64,000 nt of DNA, taken from positions 62,001 to 126,000 of the forward strand of contig NZ_SBKQ01000001.1 in NCBI RefSeq assembly GCF_004122145.1, read 5' to 3'. This document shows positions 119 to 14,829 of this stretch, in pieces. How positions within the stretch are numbered: position 1 is the first letter of the stretch; the number at the start of each line of letters is the position of its first letter. The translations under genes and the position numbers were made by a program. The notes beneath the pieces are model-generated. The model searched no databases, was not told the origin of the DNA, and saw only the letters and a list, made by a program, of their open reading frames with translations. The DNA is from Flavobacterium piscinae (GTDB lineage Bacteria; Bacteroidota; Bacteroidia; Flavobacteriales; Flavobacteriaceae).

Positions 119-727
119 TTATTTTTTCTTTTTTGCTCCACCTTTTTCTGCTTTGGCAGCTTCTTGAGCAGCTTTCATAGCAGCACGTGAAATTCTCACT
201 TGACATACAACTGTGTTATCCGGGTGCATCAATTTGAAATTGTTGGTTTCAATTTTGGTAACATATAATTTGTTACCCATTTCTAAACCGGAAATGTTTG
301 CTTCTACGAAATCAGGAAGGTTTTTAGGTAAAGCTTTCACTTTTAATCTTCTTTGGTTTAAACGTAGTACCCCACCGGCTAATACACCTGGTGATGTACC
401 TGTAATTTTTACAGGAATTTCCATCATGATTTCTTTGTCGTCTTTTAACGCATAGAAATCGATGTGTAAAATTTTGTCTGATACGGGGTGAAATTGAATG
501 TCTTGTAAAATAACATCTGCCTTTTTCCCACTATTTAATTCAATTACAACAGTGTGTGCGTTGGGAGTGTAAACCAAGTTTTTGAACGCTTTTTCTTCTG
601 CTGCAAAATGTACTGGTTGATCTCCTCCGTAAATAACGCAAGGAACCATTCCAGCATCACGTAAGGCTTTTGTTGACTTTTTGCCTACGCTTTCTCTTTC
701 TGATCCTTTAATCGTAATCGATTTCAT
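119..727 (-). CDS. rplY: 50S ribosomal protein L25 (CTC/TL5 form)
   Basis: This 202-residue protein is the long form of L25, which binds 5S rRNA in the large ribosomal subunit. The N-terminal half (about 1-90) is the L25 domain, opening with [17 protein letters not shown] and containing the VIYGG motif. The C-terminal half (about 95-180) is the TL5 beta domain with the GVLAGGVL segment. The tail is rich in Ala and Lys and ends in four lysines. It lies 91 bp downstream of prs on the same strand, an order I know from other Flavobacteriaceae, and a hairpin terminator follows it. The identification is firm. Confidence 0.95.
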
Positions 728-769
728 TGTAAAATATATAAAATTAATAAATAAAAATTCTTTTCTGTT

Positions 770-815
770 GTCTGTAATTTGCTAATCACTAATTACTATT
801 CACTAATCACTCAAC
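770..815. repeat. Degenerate CACTAAT-rich intergenic repeat
   Basis: The spacer between prs and rplY holds several imperfect copies of AATCACTAAT / ATTCACTAATCACT. Similar low-complexity strings recur in other spacers of this window, near 16.71-16.76 kb (GGAGTTGGGAG), 20.09-20.14 kb (GATTACCCATTACC) and 29.24-29.28 kb (AAAATCAACAATC). Nothing indicates coding. Confidence 0.45.
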
Positions 816-818
816 AAA

Positions 819-1760
819 CTACATCAAAAACTTCCCACTAATGGAATTGTTGTGTTGCACCATGTGCATGACTTCTGCAAAAAGCGGTGCACAACTCACC
901 ACTCTGATTTTGTTCGATTCTTTCTTTAACGGAATTGAATCGGTAACGATTAACTCGCTTAATTGTGACTTTTCGATTTTTTCATACGCATCGCCGGATA
1001 ATATGGCATGTGTACAAATGGCTCGAACACTCAAAGCTCCTTTTTCAATCATTAAATCGGCCGCCTTAGCAAGGGTACCGCCGGTATCTATCATGTCGTC
1101 AACCAAAACAACGTTTCGTCCTTTTACTTCTCCGATCAATTCCATTGTGTCAATGACGTTAGCTACTTTCCGTTGTTTGTAACAAATCACCACATCCGAT
1201 TCTAAAAACTTCGAGTAGGCATAAGCTCTTTTAGAACCGCCCATGTCGGGTGAAGCAATCGTTAAATTCTCCAAATTCAAACTTTTTACATACGGTAAAA
1301 AGATGGTAGAAGCAAACAAATGGTCAACCGGTTTTTCAAAGAAACCTTGAATCTGATCGGCGTGTAAATCCATCGTCATAATTCTTGTTGCTCCTGCAGT
1401 TTCCAGTAATTTGGCTACTAATTTGGCTCCAATCGGCACTCTTGGCTTGTCTTTTCGGTCTTGTCTGGCCCATCCGAAATATGGAATAACCGGTGTAATG
1501 TGTCTGGCTGAGGCTCTTTTGGCAGCATCAATCATTAACAAAAGTTCCATCAAGTTGTCTGCACTCGGAAAAGTGGAGCAAACGATGAACACCCGCAATC
1601 CGCGAATAGATTCTTCAAAAGACGGTTGAAACTCGCCGTCACTATATTCAGAGAACGTTACTTTACCTAGCGGAATTCCATAGTGTTGAGCTATTTGTTC
1701 AGCTAAGTATACACTTTTTGAACAAGCAAATATTTTTGCTTCCGGTTCGTTGTGTGACAT
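819..1760 (-). CDS. prs: Ribose-phosphate pyrophosphokinase (PRPP synthetase)
   Basis: The enzyme transfers pyrophosphate from ATP to ribose 5-phosphate, giving PRPP for purine, pyrimidine, histidine and tryptophan synthesis in the cytoplasm. The 313 residues match the usual length of bacterial class I enzymes. Visible motifs are the metal and ATP loop DLHADQIQGFF (about residues 130-140) and the PRPP loop VVLVDDMIDTGGT (about 215-227). The N-terminus starts at an ATG followed by a typical beginning (IFACSKSVYLAEQIAQHYG). A TAAATTTG -7 element lies about 50 bp upstream. rplY follows on the same strand, so the two may be cotranscribed. Confidence 0.96.
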   Translation of the reverse strand: MSHNEPEAKIFACSKSVYLAEQIAQHYGIPLGKVTFSEYSDGEFQPSFEESIRGLRVFIVCSTFPSADNLMELLLMIDAAKRASARHITPVIPYFGWARQDRKDKPRVPIGAKLVAKLLETAGATRIMTMDLHADQIQGFFEKPVDHLFASTIFLPYVKSLNLENLTIASPDMGGSKRAYAYSKFLESDVVICYKQRKVANVIDTMELIGEVKGRNVVLVDDMIDTGGTLAKAADLMIEKGALSVRAICTHAILSGDAYEKIEKSQLSELIVTDSIPLKKESNKIRVVSCAPLFAEVMHMVQHNNSISGKFLM

Positions 1761-1811
1761 TTTAAATGGTTGTTATGTAGTTAGTTAGTTGTGTGTCGTC
1801 GAAACGAGGTG

Positions 1812-1819
1812 CAAATTTA
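1812..1819 (-). promoter_or_regulatory. -7 element of the prs promoter
   Basis: Read on the minus strand the bases are TAAATTTG, an exact match to the Bacteroidota -7 consensus TAnnTTTG, about 50 bp ahead of the prs start. No TTG stands at the best spacing, so only the -7 part is convincing. Confidence 0.55.
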
Positions 1820-1861
1820 GAAATAAAAATCAACTTAGAAAGGAATTTTTCCACAAATTTC

Positions 1862-1893
1862 TTGAAAATGTCTCAAAAAATTATTTACATTTG
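1862..1893 (+). promoter_or_regulatory. Promoter of the tRNA-Leu transcript
   Basis: TTG at 1862-1864 and TACATTTG at 1886-1893 are separated by 21 bases, close to the Bacteroidota -33/-7 spacing. Transcription would start near 1900. The primary transcript would therefore carry both upstream repeat units before the mature tRNA. Confidence 0.6.
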
Positions 1894-1914
1894 CACCCAC
1901 AAATAAGCATCCCT

Positions 1915-2047
1915 GCCCGGATGGCAAAGTCTTTAATTAATTTTTTCTAAAAATTAGTCAAAACTTAAAAATCTAAATTGCCCGGATGGCGTTATCTTTA
2001 CTTAATTTTTTTTAAAAATTAGCTAAAAATAATTTCATCTTAAATTA
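1915..2047 (+). repeat. Two tandem 65/68-bp units carrying the tRNA-Leu 5' end
   Basis: The 11-mer GCCCGGATGGC, identical to the first 11 bases of the tRNA, occurs at 1915-1925, 1980-1990 and again at the tRNA itself (2048-2058). The first two copies are each followed by a similar AT-rich segment (TCTTTAxTTAATTTTTT, then TAAAAATTAG), in which AATTTTT and AAAAATT can pair as a small hairpin. The units are 65 and 68 bp long and, by eye, about three quarters identical. They look like tandem duplications of the tRNA leader plus the acceptor 5' strand, and they lie inside the likely precursor. Confidence 0.8.
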
Positions 2048-2127
2048 GCCCGGATGGCGGAATTGGTAGACGCGCACGACTCAAACTCGTGTACTTAGGT
2101 GTGTGGGTTCGATTCCCACTCCGGGTA
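2048..2127 (+). tRNA. tRNA-Leu(CAA)
   Basis: The acceptor strands GCCCGGA and TCCGGGT pair with one G-U. The T arm is GTGGG-TTCGATT-CCCAC, and the anticodon stem CACGA/TCGTG encloses the loop CTCAAAC, giving anticodon CAA (reads UUG). The extra variable-arm bases, A as discriminator and a total of 80 nt fit a leucine tRNA. CCA is not encoded. Confidence 0.95.
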
Positions 2128-2128
2128 C

Positions 2129-2160
2129 AAAACCTCTCAGTAATGGGAGGTTTTTTTTAT
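2129..2160 (+). terminator. tRNA-Leu terminator
   Basis: AACCTC and GAGGTT form a short hairpin followed by eight T residues, directly after the tRNA. Confidence 0.75.
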
Positions 2161-2229
2161 TTTCATACGCTCATTTACGTATTTCAAAAAAGTTTTACTA
2201 TTTTTAATATTGCTTAAAATTTTGAATGA

Positions 2230-2856
2230 ATGAAAAAACGAATTGGGATAGTAGAAGATGACCGCGATTTGCGAGAAGCATTGGGTTTGATGATTCAATT
2301 TACCGATCAATTTGAATTAGCCGGAAGTTTTGAAAATGCCGAGATGGCTTTAAAAGAATTACCCGATTTGGATGTGGATGCCATTTTGATGGATATAAAT
2401 TTACCCGGAGAAAGCGGAATTAGTTGCGTGAATAAATTGAAAAATTCCTGTCCCTCAGTACTTTTTTTAATGTGTACTTCTTATGAGGATGATGATAAAA
2501 TTTTTCAAAGTTTAGAAGCCGGTGCAAGTGGTTATATATTGAAAACCGAAGGCCCGGCAAAAATTATTGGTGCTTTAGACGAATTATTTGAAGGCGGAAG
2601 CCCAATGAGTAGTAGCATCGCCCGAAAAGTGGTAGCTAGTTTTTCCAAAATGGAATCACAAAATAAATTGACGGAATCGTTAACCGGCAGAGAAAGAGAG
2701 ATTTTAGAATTGTTAGCCAAAGGGCAAATGAACAAGGAAGTAGCAGCGGTTTTGGAGATTAGTGTAGGTACGGTCCGTAAGCACATTCAAAATATTTATG
2801 AAAAGTTACATGTCAATACGAGAGTAGAGGCGGTTAATGTATATTTGAAACGCTAA
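2230..2856 (+). CDS. NarL/LuxR-family response regulator
   Basis: This 208-residue cytoplasmic regulator has a receiver domain (about 1-120) and a LuxR-type helix-turn-helix (about 145-208, LTGREREILELLAKG...GTVRKHIQNIYEKL). The acidic pair D10/D11 and the phosphoacceptor D55 (AILMDINLPG) are present, as are the switch Thr/Ser and Lys (MCTSYEDD, ILKTEGP). It lies 9 bp ahead of a histidine kinase with the dimerisation domain that normally partners NarL-type regulators, so the two form one system. The S74 fibre gene follows the kinase after a terminator. I infer, but cannot show, that it is a target. Confidence 0.92.
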   Translation: MKKRIGIVEDDRDLREALGLMIQFTDQFELAGSFENAEMALKELPDLDVDAILMDINLPGESGISCVNKLKNSCPSVLFLMCTSYEDDDKIFQSLEAGASGYILKTEGPAKIIGALDELFEGGSPMSSSIARKVVASFSKMESQNKLTESLTGREREILELLAKGQMNKEVAAVLEISVGTVRKHIQNIYEKLHVNTRVEAVNVYLKR

Positions 2857-2865
2857 AAAAAGGAC

Positions 2866-4620
2866 ATGAAACATTATTTAACCTTTTTTTTAGTTTTAGT
2901 TTTCTCTTTTGGAATTGCTCAAAGTATTGCTGAAAAAGAGAAGCTAAGGGAATTTGAAAATTGCAAAACGACCAATTGTAAAATTGCAAATTCATTTCTT
3001 TTGGCGGAGCATTTTTTGGAAACGGATGATATCCAATCGTCTCAAAAATGGTTAAACATAACCAAAGATTTAATTTCTCCTAAACAATCTGATACCACAA
3101 TTATTTTCATTCACAGTTTGCAGTCTGAACTTTTTTATTACGATGGTTTGTTTCAATTTGGAACAAATGAGGCGGATAAAGCCATTTTAAAAGCAAAGCA
3201 ACAAAAGGATAGTTTGTGGATAGCTAATGGTTATTTCTTTAAAGGAATTAACCAGATAGAAATGAATAAGTGGGAAGATGCACAAAAATCGCTTTGGAAT
3301 TCAAGAGAATTTCAACCACAAAAGAATAGCACTTCACACATAAGAAGTACGATTCAAAAAGAACACATTTTCAATAATATTGCACAATTAAAGTTAAAAT
3401 TACATCAAACGGATTCAGCTGCTTGGTATAACGAGAAAGCCTATCAGTATGCCAAAAATACCAACAGTAAAAGAGGCATACCAAACACTGAACAAACGTT
3501 TGGTCAAATTTATTTAGAGGAAAAGAAAACGGATAGTGCAGTTTTCTATTTTGAAAAGAGTATACTATCCGCACAAAAAAGTGAGTACTTTGATATTGTT
3601 TTGCTTAACTATGGTTATTTAATGCAATGTTTCGAAAATAATCCAATTGAACACAATCGGTTGTTTGAAAAAGGAGTAGAACTCATCAATCAAAAAATTA
3701 TTAATGCAACGTTTCAACAGTATTTTTATACGATTGCTCAAGAGGTTTTCAAAAAAAATAAGCAAATTGACAAGCTGGCTTTTGTTCAGGAAAAAATCAT
3801 AAAAATAAACGAAGAAACCAGACTTAAAGGGAATACAAATATTCAAAGTATTACAGAGCAATATGCCAAAAACGAAAATAAATTGCTTTTGCTTCAAGTA
3901 GAAGAATTACAAAAGCAACGAAAATTCACGATTCTTCAATTGATTGCGGCCTTGCTTTCTGTGATTATTTTATCCCTAGTAATTGTCATTATCAGGAGAA
4001 AAAATAAAATTCAAAAAACTTTACTGCATCAAAAGAACGAAATAAGTAAAGATTTACATGATGATATCGGAAGCGGTTTAAGCAGCATTCTTATTCATGC
4101 TGATTTACTTTTAAAAAATGAAGAGACTTCAGAAAAAAACAAAGTATTAGCTTCTAAAATTAATCTAACGGGGAAAGAAATTTCTCAGCGGTTAAATGCA
4201 TTTATTTGGTCATTAAATACGGAACAGAACACACTTCAACATTTTTCGGAATATGTCAAAATGTATGGAGCAACACTTTTTGAAGAAACACCAATTGAAT
4301 TTTTATTTAGTTCATCCATCAAAGAGAGTGATTCAATAAAAATGAATGGTCATTTAAGAAAGAACTTATTTTATGCCATAAAAGAAGTACTGAATAATTC
4401 CCTCAAACATGCTCAGGCCACCAAAATAGTGTTGAATATGGATTTGGTTACATCAAAGCAAATTCAAATAACTATTCGTGATAACGGAATCGGAATGAAG
4501 AAAGAAAATGTTTTTGGGAATGGATTAAAAAACATCCAAAAAAGAGTAGAAGCAATGAAAGGAACTTTAAATATCAAAACCCAAAATGGATTACAAACCG
4601 TTTTTAAAATTCCACTGTAA
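2866..4620 (+). CDS. TPR-containing sensor histidine kinase (HisKA_3 type)
   Basis: The 584 residues start with a signal peptide (ending FGIAQS). A periplasmic region of about 300 residues with tetratricopeptide-like helices follows, then a coiled coil, one membrane helix (about 350-373, LIAALLSVIILSLVIVII) and the kinase core. The phosphoacceptor is H398 in DLHDDIGSGLSSI. The ATPase domain shows the N box (EVLNNSLKHAQA), RDNGIGM and GNGLKNIQKRV. The layout is common in Bacteroidota kinases that pair with LuxR-type regulators such as the one just upstream. The ligand is unknown, and the TPR sensor suggests detection of a protein or peptide in the periplasm. Confidence 0.92.
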   Translation: MKHYLTFFLVLVFSFGIAQSIAEKEKLREFENCKTTNCKIANSFLLAEHFLETDDIQSSQKWLNITKDLISPKQSDTTIIFIHSLQSELFYYDGLFQFGTNEADKAILKAKQQKDSLWIANGYFFKGINQIEMNKWEDAQKSLWNSREFQPQKNSTSHIRSTIQKEHIFNNIAQLKLKLHQTDSAAWYNEKAYQYAKNTNSKRGIPNTEQTFGQIYLEEKKTDSAVFYFEKSILSAQKSEYFDIVLLNYGYLMQCFENNPIEHNRLFEKGVELINQKIINATFQQYFYTIAQEVFKKNKQIDKLAFVQEKIIKINEETRLKGNTNIQSITEQYAKNENKLLLLQVEELQKQRKFTILQLIAALLSVIILSLVIVIIRRKNKIQKTLLHQKNEISKDLHDDIGSGLSSILIHADLLLKNEETSEKNKVLASKINLTGKEISQRLNAFIWSLNTEQNTLQHFSEYVKMYGATLFEETPIEFLFSSSIKESDSIKMNGHLRKNLFYAIKEVLNNSLKHAQATKIVLNMDLVTSKQIQITIRDNGIGMKKENVFGNGLKNIQKRVEAMKGTLNIKTQNGLQTVFKIPL

Positions 4621-4651
4621 ATGATGTAAAATAAGTTTGTAAGAAAATAGG

Positions 4652-4676
4652 AATACGCTAAATGGCGTATTTTTTT
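4652..4676 (+). terminator. Terminator of the NarL-type two-component operon
   Basis: The arms AATACGC (4652-4658) and GCGTATT (4665-4671) are followed by seven T. This separates the regulator-kinase pair from the fibre gene downstream. Confidence 0.75.
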
Positions 4677-4727
4677 ATGCTTAAATAGCTTCGAAAAGGG
4701 ATTAAAAGTGGGTTAAGATGATTTAAA

Positions 4728-4742
4728 GTATTGATTTTACTA
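4728..4742 (+). promoter_or_regulatory. 15-base motif shared with the second S74 gene
   Basis: GTATTGATTTTACTA occurs here, 133 bp ahead of the first S74 gene, and again without mismatch at 10845-10859 ahead of the second. A shorter relative (TTTTACTATTTTT) lies at 2193-2205 ahead of the response regulator. It is a candidate operator. The function is inferred only from position and identity. Confidence 0.4.
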
Positions 4743-4773
4743 ATGTATTAAATTTTTCTTACTTACAAACTTC

Positions 4774-4789
4774 TACGGATAATATCGTA
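4774..4789. promoter_or_regulatory. 16-base near-palindrome upstream of the first S74 gene
   Basis: TACGGATAATATCGTA reads nearly the same on both strands (outer TACG/CGTA arms). LuxR-type regulators bind sites of this form, and one is encoded just upstream. It lies about 86 bp before the start codon. Binding is a guess. Confidence 0.3.
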
Positions 4790-4874
4790 TTGTACTAATG
4801 GTTTGATTAAGTGAATTTTATACTTCAGAAACCACTAAAAATAGGATTTACTATTTTTTCAAAAAACCACTAGT

Positions 4875-7800
4875 ATGAAAAAAATTATTTTATTGCAATT
4901 ACTGTTATTTTCAACTTTTGCTGTCGCACAAGTGGGAATCAATACAACTTCTCCCAATGCACAATTGGATATTCGGTCATCAAATCAAGTTGCACCAGCT
5001 TCGACGGATGGAATGTTAATTCCCAAAATTGACACTTTTCCGGCTGTAAACCCAACTGCCGCTCAACAAGGGATGTTAGTGTATTTAACCACAACGGTTG
5101 GTAGCAATCCACCGGGGTTTTATTATTGGGATAATACTACTACCAATTGGATTCCGATAAAAGGAACTGATACAGGTACGTTAGACCAAGCCTACGACTT
5201 TGGCGGAGCGGGTAATGGTAGAACCATTACTGCTGATGCAGGTGCGGTTTTAATTAATGGAACGGATGGGTTAGTTTCTACTGGTACTTTAAACTTTGGT
5301 GCGGTAGCTCCAAGTGGTGCTGGTGTAAAAATGTATTGGAATCCAAGAAAAGCAGCATTTAGAGCAGGAAGTGTTTCTGGAGCACAGTGGGATGATACTA
5401 ATGTTGGGCAAAATTCTATTGCGTTTGGAGTAAATACTATAGCATCAGGAAATAATTCTGTGGCTATTGGAAACTCTTCTTTAGCTTCAGGAATTAGTTC
5501 AGTGTCTTTTAGAGGTAACGCCTCTGGAGCATCTTCTACTTCTTTTGGGGGAAATGCTTCTGGGTCAAATTCTACTTCTTTTGGTAGTGGGACAAATGCA
5601 ACTGGAATTAATTCATTTGTTGGGGGGTTTGTTTCAAATGCAACTGGAAGTAGTTCTTTTGCATTTGGATCTTTTAGCAATGCAAGTGGAGACAGTTCAG
5701 CTTCTTTTGGCGGTACGGCTAGTGGATTAAATTCATTTTCTCTTGGAAATGCAACTAATGCAAGTGGATTTAATTCTACTGTTATGGGTAGTTTTAATAG
5801 TTCTGTTAGTCAATCAGAAACTGTAATTGGTATCGGTGCAACAACCTATACACCTTCACTAAACGGTGATTCTCAATTTCGAATTGCCAATGCAACCGAC
5901 CGATTGTTTGTGATAGGAAATGCCATTGATTCCAACAATAATAACACTGTTGATCCTGCTGAACGCAGTGATGCAATGGTTGTGCTAAAAAACGGGGCAA
6001 CCGGAATAGGTTCTTCTACTCCAGAAGCTTTATTAGACATAGACTCAAATGATAAAGGTATTATGGTGCCTAGAGTTGCATTAACTTCAGCGAATATTAC
6101 CAGTCCGATAATCAATCCAAGCGGAGGTGCTCTTCCCGAAAGTACATTAGTATATAATACTGCAACTGCAGGAGTGGGAGAAAACGAAGTAACACCCGGG
6201 TTTCATTATTGGAATGGAACAAAATGGGTGAAATTGGAAGAGAATAACGGTAAAACGAAATATTATACCGCCTTGGGGACAACGAATGCAACTTCTTCTT
6301 CTGCAAAAACATTAATGCCGGAAATGGAAATCACCTTTACGCCAAAATCTAACATAATTTTAGTTAATTTTTCTGCTTCAGGGTTTCAAGCTCAAGGTCA
6401 AACCCCTATTTTCTTTGATGTTTTGCTAAACGGAACAATCGTAAAAGGTTTTCAAACTTCTGTTGAAGATATTGTAGGAGGTACAAATAGACCCATTTGG
6501 GATATTAATTTTTCATATCCGGTAAGTGTAACCCCATTTGTAACGCAAACTATATCGATCAATTGGGCAACTATAAACACGGTTTCTTCTAATTTTGTGC
6601 AAACGCCTGCTAGTTATGCGGGGCCATTAAATGTTAATGCACACAGAGTACTTACTGTTATTGATCCGGAAGGAGGAGGTGGTATAGTAACCCCTGTTGT
6701 ACCCCCAATTACAAATGAATATTGGAACATTCATGGAAATACAGGAACCAATCCGACTACAAATTTTATTGGTACATCTGATGCACAACCATTGGTTTTT
6801 AAAACCAATAATGTAGAAAGAATGCGAATATTTAATGGAAACTTGGGAATTGGTACAATTGCTCCAACTGCACCTTTAGAAGTGATAGGAAATATTCGAA
6901 TGGTAGATGGAAATCAACAAGCAGGGAGAGTATTAACAAGTAGTGCAACCGGATTAGCTTCTTGGCAAGATTTAAACACATGGAGTGTTTTAGGAAATGC
7001 CGGAACCAATCCTGCAACAAATTTTATAGGAACTTCCGATAATCAGTCATTTGTATTTCGAACAAACAATCTTGAACGTATGCGATTGGATTCTGGTGGA
7101 AATTTAGGCTTAGGAACAACAACTCCAAGCCGAAATATTCACATTTTAGGTAACTCGGCTTCCACAACAAATGGTCAACTTTATTTAGAACAGTCAGGAA
7201 CAGGCGATGCACTGATACACTTGGGAATTTCAGGTGCTCGACATTTTAATTTAGGTTTAGATACATCTGCTGATAGTTTTAAAATCGGCACCAGTGCAAC
7301 CGCAGCTACTGCAGTTACTTCAAGTACATTAATGACTTTACAACCTACTGGGGAGGTTGGAATTGGAACAACGGTTCCAAATGAAAAACTCCATGTTTCC
7401 GGTCCGGCAGGTTTAACAGCTGTAAAAATTACGAATACATCTACCGGTGGTTCAACTTCAAATGTAGCTATAGACTTTCATAGAGGAGGCAATTTAAATA
7501 CCGATTGGAGAATATATAACATAGGACCCAATTTAACTATCGCTAATAGTGGTGATGAATTGACTACGATAAATGATTTGTATCAATTTCAAATTACTCG
7601 GTTTATGCCTATGAATGATGGCACACAAAGTTTGGGTCAAGCAGGTAACCGCTGGAATACTGTTTTTGCCACTAATGGAATTATCAATACAAGTGATCGT
7701 AGAGAGAAAAAAGAAATTGAACCACTTCATTATGGTTTGAACCAATTGATGCAACTCAAACCTGTTACGTTTAGATGGAATAATACTCAAATTGACAATA

Positions 7801-8069
7801 ATAGTAAACACTTGGGTTTTATAGCTCAAGATTTACAAGAAGTGTTGCCCGAAGTAGTAATTGATTCCGAATGGAAGGAAGAACAACAAGGAAAAGTCTG
7901 GAAAAAAACACCTCTTTTAGGAGTTAATTACTCTGAAATAATTCCTGTTCTTGTAAAAGCAACTCAGGATCAACAAGTAATTATTGAAAATCAAAACAAT
8001 GAAATTGAAATATTGAAAAATCAACTTCAAATGTTAATTGATAGAATAGAAACTCTTGAAAAAAAATAA
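4875..8069 (+). CDS. Giant surface fibre protein with YadA-head-like repeats and an S74 chaperone domain
   Basis: This 1064-residue protein begins with a signal peptide ending at AQ, then the motif VGINTTSPNAQLDIRSS. Ten head-like repeats follow (about residues 179-312; 12 or 14 residues each, core NSxAxGxxxxASG). Next come a conserved ANATDRLFVIGNAID segment, a beta-rich region (about 458-598) that resembles a jelly roll, and two copies of a GNxGTNPxTNFIGTSD module. The Peptidase_S74 intramolecular chaperone domain starts near S940 (SDRREK; S940/K945 fit the self-cleavage dyad). The C-terminus is a coiled coil. Such proteins trimerise and the chaperone tail is usually released. It is exported, probably to the cell surface. 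A paralogue lies at 11 kb. No phage genes are near, so this is not a prophage tail fibre. Confidence 0.85.
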   Translation: MKKIILLQLLLFSTFAVAQVGINTTSPNAQLDIRSSNQVAPASTDGMLIPKIDTFPAVNPTAAQQGMLVYLTTTVGSNPPGFYYWDNTTTNWIPIKGTDTGTLDQAYDFGGAGNGRTITADAGAVLINGTDGLVSTGTLNFGAVAPSGAGVKMYWNPRKAAFRAGSVSGAQWDDTNVGQNSIAFGVNTIASGNNSVAIGNSSLASGISSVSFRGNASGASSTSFGGNASGSNSTSFGSGTNATGINSFVGGFVSNATGSSSFAFGSFSNASGDSSASFGGTASGLNSFSLGNATNASGFNSTVMGSFNSSVSQSETVIGIGATTYTPSLNGDSQFRIANATDRLFVIGNAIDSNNNNTVDPAERSDAMVVLKNGATGIGSSTPEALLDIDSNDKGIMVPRVALTSANITSPIINPSGGALPESTLVYNTATAGVGENEVTPGFHYWNGTKWVKLEENNGKTKYYTALGTTNATSSSAKTLMPEMEITFTPKSNIILVNFSASGFQAQGQTPIFFDVLLNGTIVKGFQTSVEDIVGGTNRPIWDINFSYPVSVTPFVTQTISINWATINTVSSNFVQTPASYAGPLNVNAHRVLTVIDPEGGGGIVTPVVPPITNEYWNIHGNTGTNPTTNFIGTSDAQPLVFKTNNVERMRIFNGNLGIGTIAPTAPLEVIGNIRMVDGNQQAGRVLTSSATGLASWQDLNTWSVLGNAGTNPATNFIGTSDNQSFVFRTNNLERMRLDSGGNLGLGTTTPSRNIHILGNSASTTNGQLYLEQSGTGDALIHLGISGARHFNLGLDTSADSFKIGTSATAATAVTSSTLMTLQPTGEVGIGTTVPNEKLHVSGPAGLTAVKITNTSTGGSTSNVAIDFHRGGNLNTDWRIYNIGPNLTIANSGDELTTINDLYQFQITRFMPMNDGTQSLGQAGNRWNTVFATNGIINTSDRREKKEIEPLHYGLNQLMQLKPVTFRWNNTQIDNNSKHLGFIAQDLQEVLPEVVIDSEWKEEQQGKVWKKTPLLGVNYSEIIPVLVKATQDQQVIIENQNNEIEILKNQLQMLIDRIETLEKK
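5409..5810 (+). repeat. Ten YadA-head-like repeats, mixed 12/14-residue period
   Basis: Seven 14-residue and three 12-residue copies of a pattern NSxAFGxxxxASG run in an unbroken row. In DNA this gives 42- and 36-bp units. The shorter units (for example ASSTSFGGNASG) lack two residues of the loop. The pattern is that of a left-handed parallel beta-roll in trimeric adhesin heads. Confidence 0.8.
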
Positions 8070-8073
8070 TATT

Positions 8074-8499
8074 ATGAAAAGAATAATTATTGTTATAGTT
8101 CTCTTTACTTGTTTTACAACACAAGCTCAAACAAGACAAAGTTCCCTAAAGTATGAACTAACCAGAACCAATGGATTGGAACAAGTTGGTGGTGATTTAG
8201 TGATTGTAAATCTAAACACATGCCCATTAAAAGATCTTAACAAGCAGTTACTTTTTGAGTCACAAAGTTCCAGTACAATCTTTATCAATGTCAATAATCA
8301 TGGTGGTGGGAATAGTTGTGTCACCTTGATTGTAGAAACCCAAAATGGAACAACAAGAATTGAAATTCCTGAAAATACAGAATTAGGCGTTCATCAATTT
8401 TTGAGAGTAAAAAGAGCTTTTTTAAAAATAGAAAAAACGTTATCTGACACAGCAATTACCGAATTAAAAAGTATAGGCGAAGCAACCATTTGGTTTTAA
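8074..8499 (+). CDS. Small secreted protein of unknown function, downstream of the S74 gene
   Basis: I do not recognise this 141-residue protein. It starts at the ATG 5 bp after the fibre gene stop. An upstream TTG in the same frame would overlap that gene and is less likely. A signal peptide (MKRIIIVIVLFTCFTTQAQ) is followed by a beta-rich polar body with two cysteines (NTCPLK and NSCVTLIV) that might form a disulphide. It has no membrane segment or lipobox. It is almost certainly cotranscribed with the fibre gene and shares its terminator, so it may help its assembly or cap it. No equivalent follows the second S74 gene. Confidence 0.75.
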   Translation: MKRIIIVIVLFTCFTTQAQTRQSSLKYELTRTNGLEQVGGDLVIVNLNTCPLKDLNKQLLFESQSSSTIFINVNNHGGGNSCVTLIVETQNGTTRIEIPENTELGVHQFLRVKRAFLKIEKTLSDTAITELKSIGEATIWF

Positions 8500-8551
8500 A
8501 TTATATCACAGAGTCATCGAATTAAAAATTGGAAATTAGTTTTAGTGGTTG

Positions 8552-8591
8552 ATCCCCTTCCGGCAGTGGTTTGCGGAAGGGGATTTTTTTA
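8552..8591. terminator. Bidirectional terminator between the S74 operon and the LytS kinase
   Basis: The arms ATCCCCTTCCG (8552-8562) and CGGAAGGGGAT (8574-8584) are followed by T on the plus strand. The loop and flanks (GTGGTT before, CAGTGGTTTG inside) match those of the terminator after the second S74 gene. Confidence 0.85.
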
Positions 8592-8593
8592 TG

Positions 8594-10063
8594 TTAATTA
8601 AGCCATAAAATTACTTTTGTTCCATTGGGTTGATTTTTTTCATCTTTTAAATCGATAATTTCAAAGGTATAATTCAATTGATTTTGCAGATTAAAATTAT
8701 TTAATCGTTCAATACTAAATTCAATTCCCAACGAGTCTTTTTTAAAAGAATTCATTTTATTTTCTTTGGCTTTTTCTCGACCAATTCCATTATCTTGAAT
8801 AAAAAGACCGGTTTTGTTGTGCTCGTTTATGCATCCTATTTTAATCTCTTTATGACCTTCTTTTCGCATTAAACCATGCCAAATGGAATTTTCGACAAAT
8901 GGTTGAAGAATTAATCCGGGAATTCTTTTTTCAGTCATTTTAGCATCTTCTAATTGTTCAAAAACCAGTGAGATTGCATTGTTAAACCGAATGTTTTCTA
9001 TGGTTAGATACAATTCAATAACTTCTAATTCTTCTTTTATAGTGATGTATTCGCGTTTTGAAAACTCCAAAATATTCCGAATAAGTTTAGAAAACTTGTT
9101 CAGGTAATACACCGCTTTTTCTTTATTATTTTCGATAAAATAAACTTTAATTGAATTTAAGGCATTAAAAATAAAATGAGGATTCATTTGGCTTCTTAAA
9201 GCATCTAACTTGAGATTCAGAATTTCATTTTCATATTTAGATTTCAATAGCTCAATTTTTTCGTTTTCTGTTTTTTCTAATGTAGATCGGAGAATTTTTT
9301 CTTGTAAAAGCAACTTATTTTCTAACTCTTTTTGATGTTGTTCTTTTAATTCATTAAGTTTAGTTTTCTCCAGAATAACATTTTCTTGCATGATAATTTT
9401 TTCAGAATAAATGTTTTTGATTTTAAAACCTAATGCGGTCATGAAAAGCAACGATTCAACAAAAACACCAATTAACAAATAGGTTATTGGTGCAATAGAG
9501 TAATCGTTGATTAATGTTTTATACAAAGCAAACAATACAAATCCCGTGTAGATTAAAGTGCCGCAAAGGACTAGCTTAGAGAGAGTGTTTTTTAATAAAT
9601 AAACATTTTTTAAAAAATAAAGGCTATAAATAGTAAGTAAAGGTGTAAATAAATATAAAAAAAAATTTTTAATATAAGCGACATTGTGCAAAACTATAGA
9701 AAGAGAAAAAAGAAGAATAGCTATGATTAAATTAATATTCAAAAATCTAACAAAAAAAGTAGTTTGTTTTTTGTAATGGTTGTATAAATCCAACAGATGT
9801 ATATAGAAAAAAACCATCATGGAATTATAAATGATTTGATTCATCCAATTGAGGGCGAAAAAACGACTATTGGCATACCAAGATAAAACAGGTTCAATAT
9901 AAACTGTTTTTGTGGATAAGTATAACAGTAAAAAAAGATTGTAAAGGGCGTAATATTTAAACGCTTTTTCTTTTGTTTGGTTGTAGATTATCAAACTTAA
10001 GATAAAAAAAACAACTAATGCAGAAATGACGATATGCCATAAAATAAGTCTTGCTTCTTGCAT
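8594..10063 (-). CDS. LytS-family sensor histidine kinase with a seven-helix membrane domain
   Basis: The 489-residue protein has about seven membrane helices in its first 215 residues, like a 7TMR-DISM sensor without the extracellular domain. A coiled coil (about 220-280) and a His_kinase domain follow. The phosphoacceptor is H296 in SQMNPHFIFNALNSIK. The ATPase parts are FVENSIWHGL and IQDNGIGREKA. It is translationally coupled to the LytTR regulator by a TAATG overlap, with the regulator first, so the two form a system. The signal is unknown. It is convergent with the first S74 operon, and its operon is divergent from the second. Confidence 0.9.
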   Translation of the reverse strand: MQEARLILWHIVISALVVFFILSLIIYNQTKEKAFKYYALYNLFLLLYLSTKTVYIEPVLSWYANSRFFALNWMNQIIYNSMMVFFYIHLLDLYNHYKKQTTFFVRFLNINLIIAILLFSLSIVLHNVAYIKNFFLYLFTPLLTIYSLYFLKNVYLLKNTLSKLVLCGTLIYTGFVLFALYKTLINDYSIAPITYLLIGVFVESLLFMTALGFKIKNIYSEKIIMQENVILEKTKLNELKEQHQKELENKLLLQEKILRSTLEKTENEKIELLKSKYENEILNLKLDALRSQMNPHFIFNALNSIKVYFIENNKEKAVYYLNKFSKLIRNILEFSKREYITIKEELEVIELYLTIENIRFNNAISLVFEQLEDAKMTEKRIPGLILQPFVENSIWHGLMRKEGHKEIKIGCINEHNKTGLFIQDNGIGREKAKENKMNSFKKDSLGIEFSIERLNNFNLQNQLNYTFEIIDLKDEKNQPNGTKVILWLN

Positions 10064-10800
10064 TACAACTTGTTTATAAGTTCATCTTTTTTCTGCCGAG
10101 AAACGGGAATAATCACATCATAATCTAAAATTACATATTGTTCTGATTTATTAAACTCAATTAATTTATTCAAGTTAATGATAAAGCTGTTATGAACTCT
10201 GGCAAAAGGAAAATTTAAGAGTTTGTCTTCAACCGCTTTTAGGTTATGATTGATTAATTTTTTTTTGGTTTTGTCAAAATAAATGTAACTGTTATTGCCT
10301 TCGCTTTTTACATACAAAATATCATCAGCATTATAAAAAAATAATTTACTTTCTGAATTAAAGCTTAATCGTTGATAATTTGAGTTCGTTTTACTCGTAA
10401 AATCTAAAAGTATTTTTTCAATATCAACATGTAATTTTTCTTGGTTTATTTCAAATTTGATTTTTTCTACACACTCTTTTAAGTCGTCACTATCAATAGG
10501 TTTTAATAAATAATCAAAGGCTCTTTTTTTAATGGCTTGTATGGCATATTGATCATAAGCCGTAGTAATAATAATTTTCAAGCCTTTTGCGGGACAAAGA
10601 TCAATGAATTGAAAACCATTTAATCCAGGCATTTCAATGTCTAAAAAAATAATATCTACGGTGTTTTTTTCAACATATTTTAATGCTTCAAGAGGGTCTG
10701 AGAATTGACCTATTACCGTAACATCATTACAGAAAGTTTCAATTTCCCAAGCCAAACTTTTAAGGGCATTCAATTCATCGTCTATTAAAACAGCATTCAT
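10063..10800 (-). CDS. LytTR-family response regulator
   Basis: The 245-residue regulator has a receiver domain (about 1-120; acidic D7/D8, phosphoacceptor D54 in IIFLDIEMPG, K in LLKPIDSDD) and a C-terminal LytTR DNA-binding domain (about 150-245, with FARVHNSFIINLNKL and VIPVSRQKK). LytTR domains bind paired direct repeats, often ahead of genes for surface or secreted proteins. The gene is divergent from the second S74 gene across a 258-bp spacer, so that gene is the natural first target to test. Confidence 0.93.
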   Translation of the reverse strand: MNAVLIDDELNALKSLAWEIETFCNDVTVIGQFSDPLEALKYVEKNTVDIIFLDIEMPGLNGFQFIDLCPAKGLKIIITTAYDQYAIQAIKKRAFDYLLKPIDSDDLKECVEKIKFEINQEKLHVDIEKILLDFTSKTNSNYQRLSFNSESKLFFYNADDILYVKSEGNNSYIYFDKTKKKLINHNLKAVEDKLLNFPFARVHNSFIINLNKLIEFNKSEQYVILDYDVIIPVSRQKKDELINKL

Positions 10801-11058
10801 AATTAAATATAATAATTATAAACTATGCAAGTTAATAAATAATGGTATTGATTTTACTATTTTGTGTAAATGGATGCTATTGCGTGACAAATGACTGAAA
10901 TAAAATTATTTTCGGAAATTTAAACATATGGTTTTGATTTCAAATCGAAAATCAAATTTACTTTAAAAATCAACCAATTATATTCGTTTTTAACCCAATT
11001 TCAATTTTTATAATTAATATATGGAAAACATTTTCTGAAATTTGAGGTATAATGTATA
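10801..11058. promoter_or_regulatory. Divergent control region between lytTR and the second S74 gene
   Basis: This AT-rich spacer serves both divergent genes. It holds the shared 15-mer at 10845-10859 and a short inverted repeat GAAAACATTTTC near 11024. I see no clean TAnnTTTG element in the fibre-gene direction, and no ORF. Confidence 0.45.
10845..10859 (+). promoter_or_regulatory. Second copy of the shared 15-base motif
   Basis: GTATTGATTTTACTA is identical to 4728-4742. Here it lies 45 bp from the LytTR regulator start and 199-226 bp from the S74 start, depending on which start is used. Confidence 0.4.
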
Positions 11059-14000
11059 ATGAAAGTCGTTTTTAAAAAATTATTTATGAAAATAATTAAT
11101 CCAAAGAAAGCATTCGTTCTCTCTTTTCTATTCGTTTCAAGTTTTGTTTTTGCTCAAGTGGGAATCAACACAACCTCACCAAATGCACAATTGGAAATCA
11201 AATCGTCAAATGAAACAAATCCATCAAATACTGATGGCATATTAATACCAAAAGTTGATGCATTTCCATCAACCAATCCCGGAGTAGCTCAACAAGGCAT
11301 GATGGTTTATTTGACCACAACTTCCGGTAGTAATCCGCCCGGATTTTACTATTGGGACAATGGGACTACAACATGGATGGCCTTAAAAGGAACCGATGGA
11401 GGTACCCTTGACCAAGCGTATGATTTTGGCGGTCCCGGTGTAGGCAGAACAATTATTGCCAATAATGGTGCAGTTACAATCTCCGGAACAGATGGGTTAG
11501 TCTCTACAGGATTTTTTGGAGTTGGAGTTTTAGCTCCATCAGGTAGTGGCACTAGAATGGTTTGGAATCCAAGAAAAGCAGCTTTTAGAGCTGGTTTTGT
11601 TGATGGTAACCAATGGGATGATATAAATGTAGGTAATTATTCATTTGCAGTTGGAAGAAATTCTTTGGCAACAGGTGATTCCTCAGGTGCTTTCGGCTTT
11701 AATACTAGAGCAACCAATAATTATTCTTTTTCTTTTGGATATAATACTGAATCATCAGGATCATCTTCAATAGCAATGGGTTTTAATTCAGTTGCTTCGG
11801 GTAATTCCTCATTAGCAGTAGGAAACAATAATCTAGCATCTTCTACTGCTTCAATTGCATTTGGAAACAACACGATTGCTTCTAATTTAAATGCAGTTGC
11901 TTTTGGAGTTGGTACACAAGCTACTAATAATAATTCAGTAGCTTTTGGTGACAACACTCAAGCATCAGGTGGAAACACAGTAGTATTTGGTGTAAATTCA
12001 ATTGCTTCTGGAAGTAACTCTGTTGCTTTTGGAGCTAGTACACAAGCAACCGGAATTCAATCTGTTGCGATGGGACAGAATTCTGTTGCAAGTGGACCAA
12101 ATTCATTAGCAATAGGTTTAAATAATATCTCTATTGGCCCTAATTCTTCCTCATTAGGTTATTTTACACAAGCCAATGGATATGCATCAACAGCTTTTGG
12201 TTATCAATCTCAGGCAAATGAAGAAGCATCAACAGCTTTTGGAAGTAATAATTTAGCTTCCGGAGTTAATTCAACAGCTTTTGGAAGAAACACAATTGCC
12301 TCAGGTTTTGCATCAACTACTTTTGGAAGTAATACTGAGGCTAGTGGAGCTGATGCAACAGCTTTTGGAGAAAATACTCTAGCTTCAAATACTGGTTCAA
12401 CATCATTTGGTTATAACACAATTGCATCAGGTTCTAGAGCTACATCTTTAGGAAATACAACTGTTGCAGGAGGAACTTCCTCTACTTCATTTGGGCATCA
12501 TAATACAGCATATAGTTTTGGTGAAACGGTTCTTGGAATTGGTTCTACAGACTATACACCTTCACTAAATGGAAATATACGATTTAGAGTTGCCAATGCA
12601 ACAGATCGACTATTCGTTATAGGAAATGCGATAGACTCGAATAACAATAACGTGGTAGATATCGCTGAACGTAGTGATGCAATGATTGTATTAAAAAATG
12701 GGCTAACTCGTTTACCTTCAACTACCAATGCTATGATTAATGCCGCTGATGGTAAAGCAGTTGTGACGAAAGAGTACCTTCAAAGTAATTCATCAGGCTC
12801 TCTAGATCAAGCTTATGATTTTGGCGGACCGGGTGTAGGTAGAGTTATTAATGCTGATGCTTTGGATGTTGCAATCGATGGAAATTATGGTTTAAGTATC
12901 AATAAAAATGTAGGACCACTTGAACATGCATTAAGAATTAACAATACTTCAGAAGTGCTTAATGGTGCTTCATTAAGAATTAGTTCAACATTTAACAATA
13001 ATTCTGGTACCGGGATTGTAAACAGTATTGGTGGAGAATTAAGTTCAGGACAAACATTTACCGGTTTTCGAAATGTTTTTGAAAGTATTACTCCAACCTC
13101 TACAGCAAATATAAACGGAATATTCAATGTGTTTAATAATCCTTCAAATGCAAGTGTAACTGGAATAACGAACAGTTTTACAACCCCAGGTAATGGAAAT
13201 AAAGTTGGCTACAATAATTCATTTACATCAACCGGAAACGGACAGTTTTTTGGACTTAATAATTTTTTTGGAGGCACTAATGTTTCTATTTCTTATGGAG
13301 TAAGAAATGATTATTCTTTATCTGCTAACGGGACTTTTTATGGTGTCTATAATTCCATCTCAGCCTCAAATGCTTCCACTTCAACAAAATATGGTGTGTT
13401 TAATACATTTCCGGCTGCAGCAGGTGGTCTTAAATATGGTGTTTACAGTGACGTAAGAGGAGCAACAGATTTTTCTGGCTATTTTTTAGGTAGAGTGGCA
13501 ATTGGAGCAACGGCGGGTAATAATTACATTCTTCCATTATCTAGAGGTACAAACGGTCAAGTCATGCAAACGGATGGAGCTGGTAATGCATCATGGCAAA
13601 GTCCAACCACATTTGCTTGGGGTTTAAACGGAAATGCTGGGACAAATCCAACAACAAATTTTATAGGTACTACAGATAATGTAGATTTAATTTTTAGAAG
13701 AAATTCAGAAACAATTGGAAGATTGAGATTTGATAATGTTACTTTTGGTCGCAATTCTCTAACTAATTTGACAACTGGTTCTTTTAATGTTGCCTTAGGA
13801 ACAGATAGCTTAAATACACTAACAACAGGGAGTAATAATATTGCTATTGGAATAAATACTCTGAGAAATAATTTGACAGGGAATGGGAATATCGCGATAG
13901 TAGGCAATGCATTGAGAGATTTACAATCGGGAATGGGGAATATCGCTATTGGAAACCAAGCATTACAAAGCTCAATTAATTCCAACGAAGCGATAGCTAT

Positions 14001-14829
14001 TGGAAGTAGAGCTTTAATGTTACATAATTCTACAATATCAGTATCACGAAACATAGCTATCGGAGAAGAATCATTATATTCAAGCCAAGGGGTCAGAAAT
14101 GTTTCATTGGGATATCAAGCAGGATATGGTAATATTGAAGGAAACAACAATACTTTTATTGGAACAAATGCTAATGTTCTAAATTCAAATCTTAATTATG
14201 CAGTTGCCATTGGAAGTGGTGCTGTTGTGGAAAGAAGTAATGCAATTGCTCTGGGTGGAAATACACCATTTACAAATACAAGAGTAGGAATAAATGTAAG
14301 CAATCCATTATTTAGTTTACATATAAATCAAATTGGGGCTTTTGGTTTAGGTTTGTCGAACGGAACAAACAGTTGGGAATTTTGGAATAATAATACTTTG
14401 CGAATGTATTATAATGGTATTCAACGAGGAAATTTTAACGAAACAAATGGTGTATATACCTCAATTTCAGATAGAAAACTAAAAACCAATATTCAACCTC
14501 TTGAGGAGATACTTTCTAAGTTAACTAAATTAAAACCATCTAGTTATACATTTAAGCATGATAACAAAAACACGAAGCAAATTGGATTAATTGCTCAAGA
14601 AGTTGAAGAGATCTTCCCGGAATTTGTCTACAAAAGCACTAATTCAGAAAGGCAGGAAGTTGAATTATATACTTTGGATTATTCAGGTATGTCGGTTATA
14701 GCCATCAAAGCCATTCAAGAACAACAACTCATCATTGAAAAACAACAAGCTGAAATTGCAAGGCTTAAACAATTAGAAGAACAAGTTCAACAATTAGTAC
14801 AACGCCTTGAATCCCTAGAAAAAAAATAA
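11059..14829 (+). CDS. Second giant S74 surface fibre protein with 21 head-like repeats
   Basis: This 1256-residue paralogue may really start at the ATG at 11086, which puts the signal peptide (ending FVFAQ) in normal form. It shares with the first fibre protein the VGINTTSPNAQLEIKSS start, the LDQAYDFGG module (here twice), the TPSLNG...ANATDRLFVIGNAID block and one GNAGTNPTTNFIGTTD module. It has 21 strict 14-residue head repeats (from residue 193), then a GxxN/TxxG-rich middle, then NIAIGxxAL repeats (about 900-1060). The S74 chaperone domain begins at S1137 (SDRKLK, lysine at 1142). The tail is a Gln/Glu-rich coiled coil. It is exported and probably a self-processing trimer. Confidence 0.85.
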   Translation: MKVVFKKLFMKIINPKKAFVLSFLFVSSFVFAQVGINTTSPNAQLEIKSSNETNPSNTDGILIPKVDAFPSTNPGVAQQGMMVYLTTTSGSNPPGFYYWDNGTTTWMALKGTDGGTLDQAYDFGGPGVGRTIIANNGAVTISGTDGLVSTGFFGVGVLAPSGSGTRMVWNPRKAAFRAGFVDGNQWDDINVGNYSFAVGRNSLATGDSSGAFGFNTRATNNYSFSFGYNTESSGSSSIAMGFNSVASGNSSLAVGNNNLASSTASIAFGNNTIASNLNAVAFGVGTQATNNNSVAFGDNTQASGGNTVVFGVNSIASGSNSVAFGASTQATGIQSVAMGQNSVASGPNSLAIGLNNISIGPNSSSLGYFTQANGYASTAFGYQSQANEEASTAFGSNNLASGVNSTAFGRNTIASGFASTTFGSNTEASGADATAFGENTLASNTGSTSFGYNTIASGSRATSLGNTTVAGGTSSTSFGHHNTAYSFGETVLGIGSTDYTPSLNGNIRFRVANATDRLFVIGNAIDSNNNNVVDIAERSDAMIVLKNGLTRLPSTTNAMINAADGKAVVTKEYLQSNSSGSLDQAYDFGGPGVGRVINADALDVAIDGNYGLSINKNVGPLEHALRINNTSEVLNGASLRISSTFNNNSGTGIVNSIGGELSSGQTFTGFRNVFESITPTSTANINGIFNVFNNPSNASVTGITNSFTTPGNGNKVGYNNSFTSTGNGQFFGLNNFFGGTNVSISYGVRNDYSLSANGTFYGVYNSISASNASTSTKYGVFNTFPAAAGGLKYGVYSDVRGATDFSGYFLGRVAIGATAGNNYILPLSRGTNGQVMQTDGAGNASWQSPTTFAWGLNGNAGTNPTTNFIGTTDNVDLIFRRNSETIGRLRFDNVTFGRNSLTNLTTGSFNVALGTDSLNTLTTGSNNIAIGINTLRNNLTGNGNIAIVGNALRDLQSGMGNIAIGNQALQSSINSNEAIAIGSRALMLHNSTISVSRNIAIGEESLYSSQGVRNVSLGYQAGYGNIEGNNNTFIGTNANVLNSNLNYAVAIGSGAVVERSNAIALGGNTPFTNTRVGINVSNPLFSLHINQIGAFGLGLSNGTNSWEFWNNNTLRMYYNGIQRGNFNETNGVYTSISDRKLKTNIQPLEEILSKLTKLKPSSYTFKHDNKNTKQIGLIAQEVEEIFPEFVYKSTNSERQEVELYTLDYSGMSVIAIKAIQEQQLIIEKQQAEIARLKQLEEQVQQLVQRLESLEKK
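11635..12516 (+). repeat. Twenty-one uninterrupted 42-bp/14-residue head repeats
   Basis: Each unit reads roughly NSxAFGxNTxASG with small changes, and no unit is shorter or longer than 14 residues. The copies differ in DNA, so the array is old or under diversifying drift, not a recent slippage tract. The first fibre protein mixes 12- and 14-residue units. Confidence 0.88.

Follow-up and report, generated by a model that had tools for sequence, protein, structure and literature searches.

Why should two related surface fibres lie side by side on a bacterial chromosome, each next to a signalling system of a different class? The locus that raises this question belongs to Flavobacterium piscinae (contig NZ_SBKQ01000001.1, positions 62,001 to 126,000; this 64-kb stretch is called the window here, and the genome comprises 3.37 Mb in 61 contigs). 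In gene order, it encodes a NarL-type response regulator (RR1), a HisKA_3-like histidine kinase (HK1), fibre A, a small secreted protein, on the opposite strand a kinase of family PF06580 (HK2) with a LytTR response regulator (RR2), and finally fibre B; both fibres carry a Peptidase_S74 domain. A preliminary description had proposed that the two systems sense different cues and switch between, or tune, the two fibres. We consider it likely that the locus consists of two fibre cassettes, each with a two-component system dedicated to the adjoining fibre. Because in this genome and many relatives the genes of these long, phage-like fibres usually adjoin such a sensor–switch pair, with matching control sites at the promoter, it is probable that every fibre is turned on by a switch of its own and that the cassettes are private and self-regulated.

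Judged by sequence comparison, the linkage seen in the preliminary description is right and reaches well beyond this locus. The genome has eight S74 genes rather than the two first counted, and six of them have two-component genes no more than two genes upstream; for five of the 35 response regulators, an S74 locus is no more than 4 kb away, where 0.76 would be expected (binomial P 0.0009). A divergent LytTR response regulator accompanied by a TPR kinase precedes two further fibres, and in L011 a pair of this kind precedes a third. In L009, a 1821-aa S74 gene (4994-10459) follows a 1338-aa hybrid regulator (513-4529) that carries a beta-propeller sensor and an AraC-type domain (Pfam), with one short open reading frame between them; a hybrid regulator adjoining its output gene is the usual pairing in glycan loci. 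Public genomes were searched with the N-terminal ~100 aa of six fibres as the only bait, without two-component genes, and the best 80 of 238 relatives were kept, as 78 loci. Unless Pfam is named, response regulators, kinases, S74 domains and fibre N-termini were labelled with profiles built from the proteins of this genome and iterated on the loci. Among 86 distinct public fibre genes, eight had too little upstream sequence and were excluded; in the 78 with at least 3 kb upstream, two-component genes occur within two genes upstream of 41 of 53 S74 fibres and of 15 of the 25 in which no S74 domain was detected. Response regulators within 4 kb of fibres number 61 against 5.5 expected at own-genome density, an 11-fold excess (71 loci, after removal of two overlapping loci and repeats). 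That fibres and two-component genes belong together, and do so in other genomes, is thus borne out with a bait that held none of the latter.

Two layouts dominate. In type I, represented here by the A cassette, a NarL regulator, a ~584-aa kinase and the fibre all point in one direction; in type II, a kinase and a LytTR regulator are divergent from the fibre. Among the other layouts is one, scored as unlinked, in which several genes separate the fibre from a ~1044-aa kinase and LytTR regulator upstream of it (L033, L068, L086). The two systems of the window differ accordingly in class. RR1 (2230..2856, plus strand) matches Response_reg (3.2e-21) and GerE (3.7e-19) in Pfam. HK1 (2866..4620, plus strand) has a secreted-type N-terminus, a TPR-like sensor part and a single membrane stretch ahead of its HisKA_3/HATPase part, a topology read by eye; its Pfam matches are HATPase_c (1.3e-9), a weak TPR_12 (0.001) and HisKA_3 at 7e-5, just below the cut-off (23.7 versus 24 bits), and its best relatives in the PDB are DesK structures. 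RR2 (10063..10800, minus strand; Response_reg 2.5e-20, LytTR 5.7e-16) and HK2 (8594..10063, minus strand) form the second pair. The initial assignments therefore stand for the NarL and LytTR regulators and for the divergence from B, and HisKA_3 falls marginally short. The second pair shares with LytS/LytR systems the combination of a LytTR regulator and a PF06580 kinase, but HK2 does not have a LytS-type sensor: Pfam reports a 7TMR-DISM sensor (30.6 bits, cut-off 29) and no LytS-type multi-pass domain. Nor do the pairs strictly flank the locus, as had been described; the first is upstream of A and the second lies between A and B. Given the differing sensor types, it is plausible that the two systems sense different cues.

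The sites that point to local control are clearest in the A cassette. An inverted repeat, TACG-N8-CGTA, occurs three times in the window, each time in this cassette. Box 1 (2166..2181) lies 64 bp before RR1, and 16 of the 17 type I loci have a box in this place. Box 2 (4654-4669) sits in an 11-pair hairpin (4649..4674) just after the HK1 stop codon and is followed by T-rich DNA; in 15 of 17 loci a box lies no more than 60 bp from the end of the kinase gene. Box 3 (4774-4789) opens the fibre A promoter region (4774..4820, plus strand), in which CGTATTG begins at 4786 and GAATTTTA at 4813; a box farther along the gap, strictly at the fibre, is present in 12 of 17. The 17 loci, that of the window included, provide 6.9 kb of target DNA (150 bp before the regulator plus the kinase–fibre gap), which holds 43 of the 54 copies in 1.38 Mb of loci against 0.27 expected, and no box falls inside a regulator or kinase gene of these loci. 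CGTATT precedes the regulator in all 17. In all 18 type I gaps counted, which do not include two hybrid-type and two long ones, the GAATTTTA-type element follows CGTATTG at a distance of exactly 27 bp. The sites are class-specific: ATATCGTATTG occurs in 11 of 19 type I gaps and in none of 32 type II gaps, and GTYGTTSGT in 15 of the 32 and none of the 19. ATATCGTATTGT has a single exact copy in the genome, at fibre A. A scan of 4600-8700 for sigma-70 promoters and terminators did no better than shuffled sequence (20 versus 15.6 and 2 versus 2.4, respectively). Operator-like sites at fibre promoters support direct control, and this part of the preliminary description is upheld to the extent that such sites are predicted; binding and regulation are the steps that we infer from them.

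Type II gaps carry a different signal. Direct repeats at a lag of 20 bp were found in 19 of 28 gaps shorter than 200 bp (shuffle mean 2.3, largest 7; z 11.3), while the other lags from 14 to 31 gave z from -3.0 to 2.8; L011 and L040 have another string as their best repeat. In 15 of the 19, a -7-like element (N-A-H-H-TTTG) follows 40-48 bp past the second repeat (shuffles 0.3, largest 2). The -7 element described for Flavobacterium is TAHHTTTG (PMC6847099), from which most of the elements here deviate in their first position. Binding to direct repeats upstream of its promoters is described for the LytTR protein AgrA (PMC4227749).

If dedicated systems are the rule, the regulators ought to lead back to fibres and their sites should outlast a change of output. 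Relatives of HK1 occur in 23 of 398 genomes of the genus, F. piscinae included, and of the 22 outside this genome, 19 are flanked by a fibre N-terminus; because 12 of the 22 lie on contigs already in the fibre-bait set, they are not new evidence, and among the remaining ten the count is seven. In L202 only the C-terminal tail of the fibre survives (4521-4975), with the promoter box on one side and the small protein on the other, whereas regulator, kinase and boxes are kept along with that protein; this decay appears to be recent. In L203, a DUF5122 protein with a type IX secretion system (T9SS) sorting domain stands behind the kinase, and the boxes are retained; L204 has a differing gene order and no box. 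Relatives of the type II kinase are found in 79 of 398 genomes, and 17 of their regions were picked by hand from ~99 rows. A gene other than a fibre, mostly secreted or a lipoprotein as read by eye, faces the system in nine of these, and two are rearranged or ambiguous. Three of the facing genes, all in large-genome relatives, encode collagen-like GXX small proteins resembling lipoproteins (L215, 10997-11518; L217, 9724-10260; L218, 5978-6523); those of L217 and L218 have no Pfam match. The 20-bp repeat (at least 10 of 14 positions) precedes 14 of the 17 regulators, a count made without shuffle control. Operator-like sites thus appear to be retained at loci whose fibre has decayed or given way to a different surface gene.

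Several findings weigh against dedicated control. Beyond 4 kb, response regulators are still 2.9-fold over expectation (14 versus 4.8 in the 71 loci), and part of the excess is therefore a matter of neighbourhood. For 12 of the 53 S74 fibres, neither of the two genes upstream belongs to a two-component system, and these include two of the eight S74 genes of this genome: that of L010 (5732-10856) adjoins an OmpA/DUF4892 gene and, in divergent orientation, the gene of a small protein that weakly matches sigma-70 region 2, and that of L012 has nothing adjacent. Eleven S74 loci from nine other genomes contain no regulator or kinase (two of them are short or at a contig start), and a recognisable fibre N-terminus is present in five of the eleven, so the rule is limited to a clade of fibres. 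On the side of the operators, the fibre B gap (class IIb) lacks the 20-bp repeat, and no clear repeat is seen in the gaps of B, L030, L038 and L095, which in a loose alignment of four poorly alignable gaps are 66% alike on average. In the reverse test, a fibre faces the type II system in only four of the 17 regions and lies within two genes in two more. The genomes are related, moreover, and the loci are thus not independent events.

A rival reading is that the pairs are mere neighbours of the fibres, inherited together at a few stable chromosomal sites and controlling other genes. Cassettes of the same type do often share flanking genes (a 308-aa downstream protein forms a cluster of 17, and others come in groups of 10 and 6), and all but a few loci come from one genus. 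Inheritance in place would leave unexplained, however, why class-specific sites of fixed spacing occur precisely at promoters of fibre genes, and why the longer form TACG-N8-CGTATT, which gives 14 rows or 11 places genome-wide, has three of these places in the A cassette. The tree of 87 fibre N-termini speaks in the same direction: regulator type is clustered on it, yet changes 28 times (43.1 in shuffles), and well-supported branches force at least six changes for type II and at least five for type I, so that linkage has been kept despite exchange of the regulator; the tree rests on just 78 columns and its bootstrap is not settled, a further point against us. We regard common descent without control of the fibres as very unlikely.

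Did the preliminary description's switch, with the two systems cross-controlling A and B and one fibre replacing the other, leave a trace? A 15-mer, GTATTGATTTTACTA, occurs exactly twice in the 3.37-Mb genome, before A (4728..4742) and in the gap between RR2 and B (10845-10859), which is a hint of shared control, and by eye the L095 gap has a similar stretch. The 15-mer is, however, kept before A in L025 and in F. filum (L026), whose genomes lack an RR2 relative at 47% identity: at E 1e-40, the L026 genome has none and the L025 genome one at 37%. All three type I boxes of the window are in the A cassette, none near B, and most cassettes elsewhere consist of one fibre and one system. Only two of 20 genomes bearing related cassettes have a close RR2 relative (47%; search at E 1e-40), in both cases beside the fibre (L030, L038), so A and B do not make up a fixed pair. 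Switching between A and B is therefore not borne out, and we think it unlikely. As to the 15-mer itself, it was rejected as an RR1 operator, not being conserved in type I gaps beyond L013, L025 and L026, and likewise as a proven RR2 site, the L025 and L026 genomes retaining it without a close RR2.

With each system assigned to its own fibre, the simplest model is a private two-component system per fibre, which in type I also feeds back on itself. In the A cassette, the membrane kinase HK1, through its TPR-like sensor part outside the cytoplasm, would phosphorylate RR1, and RR1 dimers would bind the TACG-N8-CGTA boxes, setting transcription of their own operon from box 1 and, from box 3, of the operon that encodes fibre A together with the small protein, with box 2 placed at the end of the kinase gene. 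HK2 and RR2 would act on the divergent promoter region that RR2 shares with fibre B (10801..11085). Once exported, a fibre may trimerise through its C-terminal S74 domain, which would then cut itself off; the fibre would stand on the cell by its conserved base and bind a surface or another cell with its variable shaft and tip.

What the kinase senses bears on a further possibility, that it monitors the fibre or a partner (its folding, its export or the released S74 piece) and not an outside cue. Against six type I orthologues, RR1 is 89-92% and HK1 67-84% identical, the sensor half of HK1 (65-81%) being as conserved as its kinase half (71-91%), while fibre A ranges from 76-86% in the base to 32-59% in the S74 part and 18-57% in the middle (373-605). 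Since the sensor half is conserved while the fibre middle varies, the HK1 ligand is not expected to be the variable tip, and feedback would fit the presence of boxes at the regulator as well as at the fibre operon. A constant external cue accounts for the same conservation, however; L202 retains system, boxes and small protein despite its decayed fibre, and the system of L203 serves a different secreted protein. We consider such a homeostatic loop unlikely.

The fibre proteins themselves conform to the preliminary description, as do the genes and coordinates of the locus. Fibre A (4875..8069, plus strand; 1064 aa) has a signal-type N-terminus, a conserved base, YadA-head-like repeats, beta-helix modules, an S74 domain with the SDxxxK motif and a coiled-coil-like tail. 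Fibre B (11059..14829, plus strand; 1256 aa, probably starting at ATG 11086 rather than 11059) has a conserved base, seven YadA-head stretches and an S74 domain. They are paralogues with a common N-terminus, 53% identical over the 352 columns of the first BLAST segment, and share head-like repeats, ANATDRLFVIGNAID and GTNPxTNFIGT. In Pfam, Peptidase_S74 (PF13884) scores 65.9 bits in A and 63.8 bits in B (1.8e-17), with a curated cut-off of 22, and YadA_head reaches 6.3e-8 and 7.4e-39, respectively. The catalytic SDxxxK is found in 75 of the 76 S74 genes in these loci, including A and B, and is missing only from L012 of this genome. As S74 proteins, A and B may be predicted to trimerise and cleave themselves. 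The check for trimeric heads suggested at the outset came out positive at the level of sequence, both fibres matching BpaC/YadA-type heads: A is related to Bd2133 (8ond, 3.9e-8), to the tip of Bd3182 (8ojn, 1.3e-7; residues 633-766 of A match the Bd3182 and Bd2133 tips) and to the BpaC head (1.4e-5), and B to the BpaC head (8.8e-25) and more weakly to YadA-group and UspA1 structures, the Bd3182 and Bd2133 tips not being among its PDB matches at E 0.1. The strongly conserved base of 155 aa gave a poor predicted model (pLDDT 52), and its sole profile-search match in the PDB (E 0.058) was taken as chance.

How do these fibres compare with known ones? YadA-type trimeric autotransporter adhesins have the YadA_head repeats in common with A and B and end in a C-terminal membrane anchor. 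The C-terminus of A and B is instead S74 plus a coiled-coil-like tail, and no membrane-anchor family is among their Pfam matches at E 0.01. Phage S74 tail fibres and endosialidases (T5 pb1, 4uw8; K1F, 3gw6) share the chaperone/protease end with SDxxxK, but the fibres here belong to chromosomal cassettes with regulators; a prophage origin was rejected, a scan of a viral collection having given just two weak, partial matches. Bacteroidota hybrid two-component systems adjoin the genes they control, and L009 follows this pattern of a local regulator beside a secreted output; what differs is that classical regulator/kinase pairs of several classes here serve fibres and not glycan-use loci. Also close are the MAT (mosaic adhesive trimeric) fibres of Bdellovibrio bacteriovorus (PMC10769870), which are likewise ~1000-aa secreted proteins with a conserved base after the signal peptide and an S74 end with SDxxxK, have forms without S74 as the fibres here do, and carry the beta-helix tips related in sequence to fibre A. 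They differ in that our fibres have YadA-like head repeats in the shaft and a two-component system beside them; the term 'two-component' is absent from the text of that paper as searched. The MAT base is described there as a common ~130-aa beta-rich domain after the signal peptide, absent from the PDB, and no result relates it to the 155-aa base here, a comparison limited by the poor model. A partial literature search, with subscription journals mostly outside it, found no report of S74 fibres with two-component genes.

S74 fibres were thus already known from phages and Bdellovibrio, and what the present fibres add is that they bring probably dedicated regulators and predicted operators with them. 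Cue, target and surface role thereby become testable cassette by cassette, and the operator code offers a simple route to further cassettes and to the outputs of orphan systems. Its reach does not extend to S74 genes at large. Any S74 match was found in 11 of 60 relatives, this genome included, and the general rule that S74 genes accompany two-component genes was rejected, with none of 11 loci elsewhere and none of eight in G047 complying (the S74 profile is silent in three of the eight). G047, a 1.9-Mb genome in one contig from another family of the order, stands out by its large fibre repertoire, with 29 S74 matches, weak and mostly of 21-27 bits, largely in reading frames longer than 700 aa; the eight stretches inspected (L141-L148) hold no two-component genes.

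Directly after fibre A, and overlooked at first, lies the gene of the small secreted protein (8074..8499, starting at ATG 8074, plus strand; 141 aa). Homologues stand directly behind fibres in six loci (L024, L025, L026, L027, L031, L095). In the genus, the protein occurs in six of 398 genomes, F. piscinae included and one copy broken, the other five all being in loci of these cassettes; by this distribution it is a member of the cassette. It has no Pfam or NCBIfam match and no DUF3992 sequence match at E 10. A model predicted from eight sequences (pLDDT 78, residues 16-34 poor) is a jelly roll closest to Bacillus Ena pilins (Foldseek E 2.8e-4, TM 0.45); against Ena2A and Ena1B-type chains it gives Z 11.2 (root-mean-square deviation 2.6 over 94 aligned residues and 2.0 over 87), the next non-Ena chain reaching 9.5. 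Unlike the Ena pilins, the mature protein shows no N-terminal connector bearing a cysteine: its invariant cysteines are at positions 31 and 63, with none before. A report on the bicistronic Bacillus l-bclA-ena3A operon (PMC12921279) describes it as making the stalk and tip of an endospore appendage, and there, too, a trimeric-fibre gene adjoins a jelly-roll subunit gene, which we cite as a parallel only. One may go further and view all these loci as flavobacterial plug-in appendage cassettes, in which the constant element is a two-component system that regulates itself and has an operator code peculiar to it, and the surface gene (S74 fibre, fibre without S74, collagen-like lipoprotein or other secreted protein) is exchangeable; in the A type, the fibre and the Ena-fold subunit of the next gene would form one composite appendage monitored in the envelope by the kinase, with a closed loop for each fibre type. 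Taken as a whole, this extended reading is speculative, and we rate it as quite unlikely.

The locus is bounded on one side by two umuDC-like genes, assigned by eye, and on the other by a tRNA gene. Next to the latter, GCCCGGATGGC, the start of an apparent leucine tRNA gene, has two extra upstream copies with similar A/T-rich stretches behind them (window ~1915-2130), a pattern that, read by eye, looks like a duplication of the 5' end of the tRNA region.

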